A DNA stretch of 64,000 nucleotides from Hyphomonas adhaerens MHS-3. Lineage in GTDB: Bacteria; Pseudomonadota; Alphaproteobacteria; Caulobacterales; Hyphomonadaceae. Below are positions 30,271 to 42,210 of this stretch, piece after piece; the stretch's first letter is position 1, and each line of letters starts with the position of its first letter. The stretch spans positions 1 through 64,000 of the forward strand of contig NZ_ARYH01000002.1 in the NCBI RefSeq assembly GCF_000685235.1, given 5' to 3'. Below the pieces are notes generated by a model. It ran no database searches, was not told the DNA's origin, and saw only the letters and a list, made by a program, of their open reading frames with translations. Position numbers and translations under genes: made by a program.

Positions 30271-31038
30271 ATGCTGCTTGCTATCGACGTTGGCAACACG
30301 AACACGGTTTTCGGTATCCATGATGACAACACATGGGTGAACCAGTGGCGCAGTGCCACGGATCCGACCAAGACTGCAGATGACCACGCCGCCTGGCTGT
30401 GGCGGCTTGCGGATATGCACGGCGCTGATCTCAGCCAGATCAATGGCTGTGTGATCTCCACCGTTGTGCCGCAGGCCGTCTTCAATTTCCGGAACCTCGC
30501 CCGCCGCTACCTGCATGTCGAACCGATGTTCATCGGCGACCCTGATCTCAAGACCGGCATGGAAATCCGCATCAGCCGGCCGGAACAGGTGGGGGCGGAC
30601 CGCATTGTCAGCGCCCTCGGTGCGCACAAGCAGTATTCCGGAAACCTGATTGTGATCGACAGCGGCACGGCAACCACATTCGACGTGGTTGCAGAAGACG
30701 GCGCGTTCGAAGGCGGTATCATTTCACCGGGGGTCAACCTCTCTGTGAAGGCCCTGCACGATGCCGCTGCGCAGCTGCCGCGCATCGCCATCCAGCGTCC
30801 GGCGCATGTGATTGGCCACGACACGATTTCAGCGATGCAATCCGGTGTGTTCTGGGGATACATCGACCTGATCGACGGACTCGTGAACCGGATCAAGAAA
30901 GAGTATGGCAAGCCAATGAGCGTGGTCGCCACAGGCGGTGTCGCGGCCTTGTTTGAAGGCGCGAGCGAAACCATCGACCACTACGATCAGGATCTCCTTA
31001 TTCGGGGCCTCCTGGAAATTTACCGCCTCAACAAATAG
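30271..31038 (+). CDS. coaX: Type III pantothenate kinase
   Basis: CoaX phosphorylates pantothenate, the first step of coenzyme A synthesis, and unlike type I kinases is not feedback-inhibited by CoA. The 255-residue protein begins [19 protein letters not shown], the phosphate-1 motif of the ASKHA fold. Further motifs are [29 protein letters not shown] and [15 protein letters not shown]. It follows birA by five bases and precedes rnj by six. Confidence 0.96.
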
Positions 31039-39800: not shown

Positions 39801-40245
39801 CAAGTTTGCCTTCCTCACCCTGTCTGACCCGACGGGGGAGGTGGAGATGATGGTCTTCCCGGAAACCCTGTCTCAGAATTACGAGTTGCTGCAGGTAGGC
39901 AATGCCGTGGCGGTGACGGTCGGGGTGAAGCGAAACGGGGAAGAGATCCGGCTCAATGCCGAACGGGTCCTGCCGCTGGAATCGGCGCGCCTCAGCCGGG
40001 GCATGGGGGCGCTGAAAATACGCCTCGCCGTGGGGGCGAATCCGGCGGAGATCGCCGGTGTGGTCCACCACCTCGCCAAACTGCCCGACGCCGAGCGCGG
40101 AGATATCCTGGTCGAAGTGCCGCTGGACGATGGCCGCATGGTCATCCTGAAACTGCCGGCGACCTATACGATCAACCTGAAAGCCCAGCGGGCGCTCAAG
40201 GATGTGCCGGGCGTCGAGCGGGTGGAGCCTCTGAAAGCCGCCTGA
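36823..40245 (+). CDS. dnaE: DNA polymerase III alpha subunit
   Basis: DnaE is the replicative DNA polymerase catalytic subunit. The 1140-residue protein starts with the PHP domain (FIHLAVRSSYSLLESMI). The C-family polymerase core follows, with catalytic acidic residues at Asp395, Asp397 and Asp399 (PDFDVDFCQERR). The loop VGPGRGSGAGSVVAW precedes them. Helix-hairpin-helix (ALGALKGVGLEAM) and OB-fold regions (EMIGIVRLRSDKPARNGGKF) occupy the C-terminal third. The start is TTG with GAGGAGAG six to seven bases upstream. Its place before rpsB recurs in other alphaproteobacteria. Confidence 0.97.
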   Translation: MTESPFIHLAVRSSYSLLESMISPKDVQAWCEEHLGPAVAITDRNNLFGALEISLTLSGAGIQPIMACCFDVVEDVPRAEPSRLSIYAQNETGYRRLMYLSSRAYLDAADGVPKLSRSLVMEQTDGLIVLTGGAEGEAAKHLLKGRVADARTELSTLANAYPGRCYVEITRHGTPEERAVEEGLIDLAYELDLPLVATHDARFMKESDAQAHDAMMCISNGEYLGQPDRKQVSAQQYLKTPSEMRLLFADLPEAIENTVEIARRCSVKAEKHAPILPNFSNEGRSESEELRKQALEGLELRLKEADQLYADRETYFERLDYELGIIERMGFPGYFLIVSDFIKWAKEHGIPVGPGRGSGAGSVVAWVLLITDLDPLRFDLLFERFLNPERVSMPDFDVDFCQERRGEVIRYVRDKYGADSVAMIITFGTLQAKAVVRDVGRVMQMPYGQVDRLAKLIPFNPANPPKLQDAIDDEPKFYEEMDADERVGELLKIALKLEGKYRNAGTHAAGVVIGDRPLVELVPLYNDPRADLPATQFNMKYAETAGLVKFDFLGLKTLTVIDRALKFIRRDGQDVGPEWKSLDDQSTYDMMGSGDTLGVFQLEGAGMRDTLKKVRPHSLEDVIAIISLYRPGPMENIPVYIEGKENPEGVQYAHPDLKPVLEATYGVPVYQEQVMRMAQEIAGYSLGDADLLRRAMGKKKVEEMVAQRQRFVEGAAANKDMAAPLANEIFDTMEKFAGYGFNKSHAAAYALIGYHTGYLKRHFPVEFLAASMSLDLGNTDKLAAFFQEAKRLKIPVIAPDVNSSTADFDVRDGSIVYALGALKGVGLEAMKHVVAIREKDGPFKDIYDFAERVDPKHVNKKAFESLSKAGAFDCFDKNRARVLAGAPMLAQMAASAAEDRMGGQGGLFGDAEPALRPVLPSAKAWNGQQKLDEEFRSIGFYFSGHPLDDVLSGLDRERVTLAMEIEERAADGKPIEMIGIVRLRSDKPARNGGKFAFLTLSDPTGEVEMMVFPETLSQNYELLQVGNAVAVTVGVKRNGEEIRLNAERVLPLESARLSRGMGALKIRLAVGANPAEIAGVVHHLAKLPDAERGDILVEVPLDDGRMVILKLPATYTINLKAQRALKDVPGVERVEPLKAA

Positions 40246-40347
40246 AGCGCGTCTGTGATCATGCCCGGCTCAACCCTGATCATGGCCTGGTCCGGTATGG
40301 TCATCATATGGTCATCGGAAGTCCTGCCAAAACAGGCGTCAGACCGC

Positions 40348-40375
40348 TTGCCCGACAGGGGAAATTCTGTATAAG
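40348..40375 (+). promoter_or_regulatory. Candidate sigma-70 promoter of rpsB operon
   Basis: TTGCCC (40348-40353), preceded by C, and TATAAG (40370-40375) are separated by 16 bases, close to the alphaproteobacterial housekeeping pattern. Transcription would start near 40382, giving a leader of about 90 bases that begins just before the structured element. A 9-bp direct repeat ATGGTCATC lies upstream at 40297-40305 and 40308-40316. Confidence 0.55.
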
Positions 40376-40395
40376 CCGCCTCATCTTAAACCAGT

Positions 40396-40465
40396 TCACG
40401 GGTGCATCCGGTGCTGCGGGCCATAAGGGTCCAAAGTTCCACCCGTGACGGCCAACCGGATGGAG
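40396..40465 (+). promoter_or_regulatory. Predicted pseudoknot leader over the rpsB ribosome-binding site
   Basis: Stem 1 pairs TCACGGGTG (40396-40404) with CACCCGTGA (40440-40448), nine perfect base pairs. Stem 2 pairs CATCCGGT (40405-40412), which lies inside the stem 1 loop, with ACCGGATG (40455-40462), eight perfect base pairs, so the two form an H-type pseudoknot. A small hairpin GGGCC/GGTCC (40418-40422 with 40428-40432) sits in the loop. Stem 2 ends on the first base of the Shine-Dalgarno GGAG (40462-40465), seven bases before the rpsB ATG. This is what a repressible leader bound by protein S2 could look like; the pairing is seen, the function is inferred. Confidence 0.7.
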
Positions 40466-40472
40466 ACAATCG

Positions 40473-41267
40473 ATGGCCCTACCTGACTTCACCATGCGTC
40501 AGCTGCTCGAAGCTGGCGTTCACTTCGGTCACCAAACCCACCGCTGGAACCCGCGTATGAAGCCGTATATCTACGGCGACCGCTCCGGCATTCACATCAT
40601 GGACCTGTCGAAGACTGTGCCGGCGCTGCACCAGTCATTGCTGTTCGTGCGTGATACGGTGGCCAAGGGCGGCCGCGTGCTGTTCGTCGGCACCAAGCGC
40701 CAGGCCCAGGAGCCGGTTGCTGAAGCCGCACAGCGCTGCGCCCAGTACTACATGAACCACCGCTGGCTCGGCGGCACGCTGACCAACTGGTCCACCGTGT
40801 CCAACTCGATCAAACAGCTGCGCGAACTGAACGCCATGTTCGAAAGCGGTGGCGGTTCCGGTCTGACCAAGAAAGAGCTGCTCGATCTGGAGCGTCGCCG
40901 CGAGAAACTGCAAAAGTCTCTGGGCGGTATCGCTGACATGGGCGGCCTGCCGTCGGCCATGATCGTGATCGACACCAACAAGGAAGCCATCGCTGTTCAG
41001 GAAGCCCGCAAGCTGGGCATCCCGGTTGTGGCTGTCCTGGATACGAACTGCGATCCGGCGGATGCCGACTACGGCTTCCCGGGCAATGACGACGCTGCAC
41101 GCGCCATCTCGCTTTACTGCAACCTGTTCGCCGATGCCGTCCTCGACGGTCTCGCAGAATCCTCCGCCGGCCTCGGCATGGACCTGGGTGAGCTGGAAGA
41201 TGTGACGGGCGTTGTGGAAGCTGACGTTGCTGCAGCAGATCAAACGGCTGACGAAACCGGCGCATAA
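40473..41267 (+). CDS. rpsB: 30S ribosomal protein S2
   Basis: S2 joins the small subunit late and is needed for S1 binding. The 264-residue protein has the signature [20 protein letters not shown] at the N-terminus and [20 protein letters not shown] further on. The last 30 residues are acidic ([20 protein letters not shown]), a tail found in many alphaproteobacterial S2 proteins. It is the first gene of a long envelope and translation cluster and is probably autoregulated through the leader described above. tsf follows after 37 bases. Confidence 0.98.
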
Positions 41268-41304: not shown

Positions 41305-42210
41305 ATGGCTGAGATTACAGCTGCGCTTGTGAAGGCGCTCCGTGAAAAAACGGGCGCTGGTATGATGGACGCAAAAAAAGCGCTCGTCGAAAACAATGGT
41401 GATGAAGCTGCGGCCACTGAGTGGCTGCGTGCGAAGGGCCTGTCCAAGGCTGCCAAGAAGTCCGGCCGGACGGCCGCTGACGGCCTGGTGGCGGTTCAGG
41501 TGTCCGAAGACGGCAAGTCCGGCGCCATTGTCGAACTCAACGCCGAAACGGACTTCGTTGCCCGTAACGAGAAGTTCCAGTCCGCTCTGGCTGGTATCAC
41601 CAAAGCCGCCCTGGGCACCGACGGTTCCGTCGAAGCTCTGGCTGGCGCCCCGTCGCCGGATGGCGAAGGTACGGTTGATGACCTGATCAAGCGTCTGATC
41701 GCCACGATCGGTGAGAACATGACCCTGCGCCGTTCGGCCAAGCTGACGGCCGATGGCAAAGTGGCCTCCTACATCCACAACGCCGAAGCCCCGGGCATGG
41801 GCAAGGTGGGTGTGCTGGTCGCGCTCGACGGTTCCGGTGATCTGGACGATATCGGCCGCAAGGTCGCGATGCACATCGCTGCGACGTCGCCGGCTGCGGC
41901 TACGACCGATGAGCTGGATCCGGCCATCGTCGAAGCTGAAAAGCGCGTTCTGACCGAGCAGGCTCGTGAAAGCGGCAAGCCGGACAATGTCATCGAGAAG
42001 ATGATCGTTGGCCGCATGCAGAAGTTCTACAAGGAAGTCGTGCTCGTCGAGCAGCCTTTCGTCATGAACCCCGACCAGACGGTTGGTGAGTTCCTCAAAG
42101 GCGAAGGCGCGACGCTGAAGGGCTTCGTCAACTTCAAACTCGGTGAAGGCATCGAGAAAGAAGAAGACAACTTCGCAGACGAAGTCGCATCCATGACAAA
42201 AGGCGCCTGA
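41305..42210 (+). CDS. tsf: Elongation factor Ts
   Basis: EF-Ts recharges EF-Tu by exchanging GDP for GTP. The 301-residue protein begins [20 protein letters not shown] and contains the first signature [18 protein letters not shown]. The second signature is present as [15 protein letters not shown]. Its place after rpsB is nearly universal in bacteria. The gene is followed by a hairpin with a short T tract that may reduce transcription into pyrH. Confidence 0.98.

Follow-up and report, generated by a model that had tools for sequence, protein, structure and literature searches.

The 64-kb stretch of DNA analysed here (the window) carries on its forward strand, to which all coordinates below refer, the rpsB gene for ribosomal protein S2 (264 aa, 40473–41267; identified from its translation, a homologue being present in 101 of the 105 genomes sampled from the window's family). 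The S2 protein is 97% identical to that of Hyphomonas sp. CY54-11-8, the top match among named records, and a Hyphomonas is the most likely source of the window. The second gene of the operon, at 41305–42210, we take from its translation and the gene order to be tsf, encoding elongation factor Ts. Upstream, an ORF that is presumably dnaE-like stops at 40245, at a distance of 150 nt from the structure described below, and is followed by a predicted sigma-70-type promoter (40348–40375) consisting of TTGCCC (40348–40353), a 16-nt spacer and TATAAG (40370–40375). A loose form of this pattern, a TTG box and a TAT/CAT[AG] box 15–18 nt apart, is present in 88 of 88 family leaders tested (counted without a shuffled control), and the spacer is 16 nt long in 70 of the 88. 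With the promoter in this position, the transcript would be expected to start near 40382–40384, upstream of the whole structure, and thus to include all of it. In Magnetospirillum, the measured rpsB transcript starts given in Table 1 of PMC9549626 lie 6–7 nt upstream of the Rfam 'rpsB' match.

The 77-base leader (40396–40472), which abuts the rpsB start, contains exactly two Watson–Crick stems of 6 bp or more. P1 joins TCACGGGTG (40396–40404) to CACCCGTGA (40440–40448) through 9 bp, and a pseudoknot stem joins CATCCGGT (40405–40412, core 40407–40412) to ACCGGATG (40455–40462, core 40455–40460) through 8 bp. The two stems are interleaved, with 0 nt separating their 5′ strands. The stem search therefore bears out the original prediction of two perfect interleaved stems of 9 and 8 bp at this site, and its view that they are unlikely to arise by chance is supported as well: any 8/8 interleaved pair appeared in 2 of 20,000 dinucleotide-preserving shuffles, and across the window 12 of 63,923 77-base positions hold such a pair, all of them at the rpsB leader. 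When folding is restricted to nested pairs, the seven central pairs of P1 form with a probability of at least 0.98 and the end pairs with 0.71–0.81 and 0.39. A two-pair outer clamp, CC (40391–40392) with GG (40450–40451), extends P1, so that the element begins about 5 nt upstream of 40396; both clamp pairs are C–G in 81 of 81 family rows and, being invariant, are without covariation support. The leader also holds a hairpin, P3 (40418–40432; 40418–40422 paired with 40428–40432), which is variable in length and sequence.

The Shine–Dalgarno sequence (SD), GGAG at 40462–40465, shares its first base with the outermost pseudoknot pair. The prediction that the second stem ends on this GGAG holds for that one base, G40462; the rest of the motif lies outside the stem. 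In H-type geometry, a loop 1 of zero nucleotides is hardly able to bridge all 8 bp of stem 2 while stem 1 retains its 9 bp; the likelier fold is therefore a knot of 6 bp in which 40405–40406 serve as loop 1. Direct pairing of the SD in the window, which depends on the single G at 40462, is thus sterically doubtful and partly supported. As a separate observation, the knot strand and the SD together create an out-of-frame ATG at 40460–40462 (GGATGGAG), which opens a short ORF spanning the rpsB start in Hyphomonas-type leaders.

Of the 105 family genomes, 101 have an S2 match, and conservation within the family was assessed in the leaders of 90 of these; the other 11, including partial genes, were left out. 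The signature CCGGTG with a downstream AACCGG is present in 90 of the 90, in 88 by script and in two (L088 and L090) by eye; these two start with TTG, and the signature script and the promoter counts cover the remaining 88. In an alignment of the 81 distinct family leaders (A1), both-side changes occur at 9 of 9 P1 pairs, with 91.2% of cells paired, and at 5 of 5 P3 pairs, with 84.4% of cells paired. The whole-structure covariation score is 0.315 versus 0.145 in shuffled alignments, none of 500 shuffles matches the paired share or the covariation score of A1, and every slid register scores far below the true one. The search for compensatory changes that had been proposed as a check on the prediction thus supports the first stem at every pair.

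For the second stem, the same check gave a divided result. The five knot core pairs form in every one of the 81 A1 rows and never vary, so that all covariation in the knot core comes from other families; compensatory changes are absent from the core within the family and present across sister families and the Gammaproteobacteria, as set out below. The two outer pairs are less constant: 56 rows have letters at the outermost, which reaches 40462, and 40 of them form it, while 47 of 81 rows form the second-outermost. The outermost pair is C–G in Hyphomonas and a few other leaders, and has one clear compensated case in the family, a U–A pair in L040. A further helix, P2, can be made out in Ponticaulis-type leaders such as L072; the Hyphomonas and Henriciella types lack it.

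The original prediction had left open whether the structure is catalogued, and in kind it is. The rpsB motif of Meyer et al. 2009, as laid out in the account of the motif in PMC2704228, consists of P1, variable P2 and P3 helices, and a pseudoknot in which the J2-3 strand pairs with a 3′ extension that follows P1; the motif is present in most Alphaproteobacteria, and P2 is absent in some lineages. The element in the window shares with that account its position directly upstream of rpsB (40396–40472 abutting the start at 40473), a long covarying P1, a junction strand that forms a pseudoknot with the 3′ extension, and a P3 hairpin, and its lack of P2 is permitted by the same description. In each of the 90 family leaders examined, the gene that follows is rpsB. 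The main text of PMC2704228 contains 0 occurrences of the term 'Shine-Dalgarno', and the adjacency of knot and SD is not discussed there under that name.

The motif has an Rfam entry, RF01815; its model scores no match at the window's element, with nothing at E ≤ 10 in 40000–40800 and the gathering cut-off of 40 bits missed. Under stricter filters and at E ≤ 0.001, RF01815 matched none of the 105 family genomes, while 90 of the 90 leaders examined carry the element, and under lax filters at 15 family loci only the Ponticaulis-type leader L072 was matched, at 29.2 bits, below the cut-off. Across the class, 172 of 289 genomes matched at E ≤ 0.001, 73 of them above the cut-off; across the order, 34 of 200 genomes matched, none in the window's family or in the sister family f215. 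A model built from the leaders of the window's family alone (R1) matched 34 of 289 class genomes, and at least 20 of the 33 non-self matches coincide with RF01815 among the matches listed. An rpsB start is found at 26 of the 30 R1 loci retrieved, the window's own included, and at 46 of the 50 class loci obtained from R1 and RF01815; the loci without one (L107, L108, L110 and L114) are probably false R1 matches. The window leader is an unannotated, locally divergent form of a known element, one that fits the published architecture but not the scored model, and the structure is in all likelihood real, conserved and functional.

Other matches obtained in these searches stand apart from the element. 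A second R1 match in the window (30811–30905, 13.2 bits, E 0.022) is probably due to chance. The t44 RNA model (RF00127) was rejected as a description of the window, where it found no match; the positive control, the E. coli leader (L091), scored 83.5 bits. The control genome of Thermotoga maritima gave an RF00127 match at E ≤ 0.001, apparently below the cut-off, which may hint that an S2 leader is more widespread.

Evidence for the knot core beyond the family comes from a wider set of leaders, taken from the class, from named alphaproteobacterial records, from Gammaproteobacteria, from E. coli and from four other families of the window's order. Of the 60 order leaders retrieved, 58 entered the core and helix searches (L324 and L325 have other start codons) and 57 the knot-strand analysis, which is without L276. 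The core test covered 268 distinct leaders of 303, sorted into ten 3′ core classes that were chosen after the data were seen; leaders of the ATCGG class were searched for the complement of TCGGA. The complement of a leader's own 3′ core is present upstream in 262 of the 268. By class, the pairings are CCGGU:ACCGG (206 of 208 leaders), GGGGU:ACCCC (23 of 23, the class to which the E. coli core belongs), CCGGC:GCCGG and UCGGU:ACCGA (8 of 8 each), UCCGA:UCGGA (7 of 7), UCAGU:ACUGA (3 of 3), CUGGC:GCCAG and UUCGU:ACGAA (2 of 2 each), UUAGU:ACUAA (one leader, L316) and CGGGU:ACCCG (2 of 5, the other three, L158, L162 and L168, having a U–G wobble in the fifth pair). Of the other three leaders without their own complement, L099 and L276 have a broken final core pair, and L156, with the knot GGGGU:ACCCC, had been given the wrong 3′ core. 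The changes UCAGU:ACUGA, UUAGU:ACUAA, UCGGU:ACCGA and UUCGU:ACGAA are of the f215 type.

Complements belonging to another class are scarce in some classes, CCGGT being present in 1 of 23 ACCCC leaders and GGGGT in 27 of 208 ACCGG leaders, but they are not always rare: CGGGT is present in 53 of 208 ACCGG leaders, GGGGT and TTCGT in 6 of 8 GCCGG leaders, and CCGGT in 4 of 7 ATCGG and 2 of 2 ACGAA leaders. Of 184 alphaproteobacterial leaders, 181 contain CCGGT and 182 contain ACCGG. A hand-anchored alignment (A2) holds 85 of 90 distinct 16-mers; the five dropped (L042, L138, L235, L267/L268 and L282) had been anchored by the script at a CCGGC in another part of the leader. A2 has both-side changes in 7 of 8 pairs and a covariation score of 0.302 versus 0.112 in shuffles, with 0 of 500 reaching it, and no excess of further pair types (18 versus 18.3 in shuffles, 358 of 500 being as high). 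Because A2 was anchored partly by complementarity, the own-complement count carries more weight than the paired percentage of this alignment. An unsupervised longest-helix search with swapped controls did not separate true from swapped leaders, a failure that we think arises from SD-complementary CCUU runs giving equally long helices, and a pattern derived from two Parvularculaceae leaders matched 0 of 278 class genomes.

Two side observations emerged from the wider set. Six leaders (L269, L271–L273, L281 and L251) with the core UUCCGA:UCGGAA are judged to be of Caulobacteraceae type from the Brevundimonas record among them (L251); downstream of the 5′ knot strand such leaders carry GGTCCTTTT or GTCCTTT, complementary to the SD region AAAAAGGA, and an alternative anti-SD helix is possible there. 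Records titled Acidobacteria bacterium (L178) and Nocardioides marinus (L221) contain rpsB genes and leaders of alphaproteobacterial type, and look mislabelled.

The distance between knot and SD was measured in 214 distinct leaders minus L251, which has no 3′ anchor, leaving 184 from Alphaproteobacteria and 29 from Gammaproteobacteria; the SD-like motif came from a permissive priority list, of which the first entry present was used, and a single alphaproteobacterial leader had none. The knot core ends 1–3 nt before the SD-like motif in 166 of the 184 alphaproteobacterial leaders, whereas the knot ends 3–15 nt before it in the 29 gammaproteobacterial leaders, E. coli among them. The original idea that the knot hides the ribosome-binding site (RBS) is thus sustained in one respect, the core abutting the SD, and weakened in another, pairing of the SD itself in the window being confined to one poorly conserved outer pair.

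The sister family f215 (leaders L313–L323 and L326), similar to two named records of Parvularculaceae, L192 and L197, has a different arrangement at this point. In f215 and in these two records the pseudoknot strand runs into or up to the SD, as in ACCGAAGGAG, and the f215 partner strand carries CUU or UCCU, which could pair further into an AAGGAG-type SD, crossing a mismatch or bulge in several leaders. On this pattern of complementarity, f215 is the best candidate for direct SD pairing, which appears better supported there than in the window. We tentatively suggest that the knot may be placed to exclude the 30S subunit from the SD in Alphaproteobacteria, Hyphomonas and its sister families being the clearest cases, with outright SD pairing in f215. 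If so, the repression step would differ from that in E. coli, and rewiring of the same S2-binding core would have turned a remote control of initiation into a direct one.

What S2 does at such a leader is known from E. coli. A review (PMC10931766) states in its treatment of this operon that S2, aided by S1, represses rpsB–tsf through the leader, in agreement with what the original prediction had taken as established. The same treatment describes the mechanism as unclear and places the RBS outside the operator, so that SD occlusion is not the established mechanism even in E. coli. The titles and abstracts listed in searches of open-access papers, a body from which subscription papers are mostly missing, yielded no experiment on an alphaproteobacterial rpsB leader, and for this reason S2 binding and repression are transferred here from E. 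coli. Eckert and Weinberg 2020 (PMC7247131) has 0 occurrences of uS2 and a single mention of rpsB, in an entry for a Bacteroidia L13 leader. By analogy with E. coli, control of the window's leader by S2 is a reasonable inference.

We consider that the window leader is probably a compact, P2-less rpsB motif in which an S2-stabilised knot blocks initiation at the adjoining SD. S2 in excess over assembling 30S subunits, probably together with S1, would bind the unit formed by P1 and the pseudoknot and stabilise the knot; the 30S subunit would then be denied the adjoining SD, and translation of rpsB would fall, followed by that of tsf through coupling. When S2 is scarce, the short knot would breathe or be displaced by an incoming 30S subunit, and translation would proceed. 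The two outer pairs that reach G462 would be optional, lengthening the knot in Hyphomonas and a few relatives, and would lie outside the core of the mechanism.

A related but rather unlikely reading has S2 bound to P1 and P3, with repression coming about through entrapment of the 30S subunit or recruitment of S1 elsewhere; the knot would then be no more than a binding platform that never covers the SD. The uninvolved RBS of the E. coli operator (PMC10931766) would fit such a platform, as would the spacing in the 29 gammaproteobacterial leaders and the poor conservation of the two SD-touching outer pairs in the window, but the 1–3-nt spacing in 166 of 184 alphaproteobacterial leaders and the SD-pairing strands of f215 argue against it. 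Retention of the structure for basal expression, through mRNA stability or 30S standby and positioning and with no S2 binding in this lineage, is improbable. Contacts with the ribosome or S1 could account for the strong conservation of CCGGT and ACCGG in the core, and repression in E. coli also requires S1 (PMC10931766); yet the same architecture stands before rpsB in E. coli, where repression by S2 has been shown, and the knot is retained before the same gene though its core sequence changes.

The two remaining explanations fare much worse. Termination or attenuation of the dnaE-like gene by the hairpin would suit an ORF that ends 150 nt before the structure, but P1 is followed by no T run (CGGCCAACCGGATGG), on which ground a terminator was rejected, and the predicted promoter sits between that ORF and the structure, leaving this role very improbable. 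Chance pairing, which a GC-rich leader might favour, was rejected on the 2 of 20,000 shuffles and is further contradicted by the compensatory changes; we regard its probability as negligible.

The wider comparison provides clear compensatory evidence for the rpsB-leader pseudoknot, both within one bacterial order and against the Gammaproteobacteria. RF01815 misses the sampled genomes of the window's family, and the model would need reseeding to include them. The contrast in structure, with 1–3 nt from knot to SD in most of the alphaproteobacterial leaders measured and 3–15 nt in those of Gammaproteobacteria, makes the mechanism of S2 repression testable.

Pseudoknots at the RBS that compete with initiation are familiar from the S4 leader of the alpha operon and the S15 leader of rpsO; those leaders belong to unrelated genes and have unrelated structures, and no homology with them is claimed. 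The nearer comparison is with the rpsB motif as published (PMC2704228, in its account of the motif), from which the window leader differs in being without P2, in having 0 nt between P1 and the knot strand, and in a knot that can reach 8 bp versus five. The t44 leader of E. coli rpsB (RF00127) lies before the same gene and has the same layout of P1 and pseudoknot, with the core GGGGU:ACCCC at the equivalent place; its 5-nt core ends 24 nt before the start codon, whereas that of the window ends 13 nt before it, adjoining the SD.
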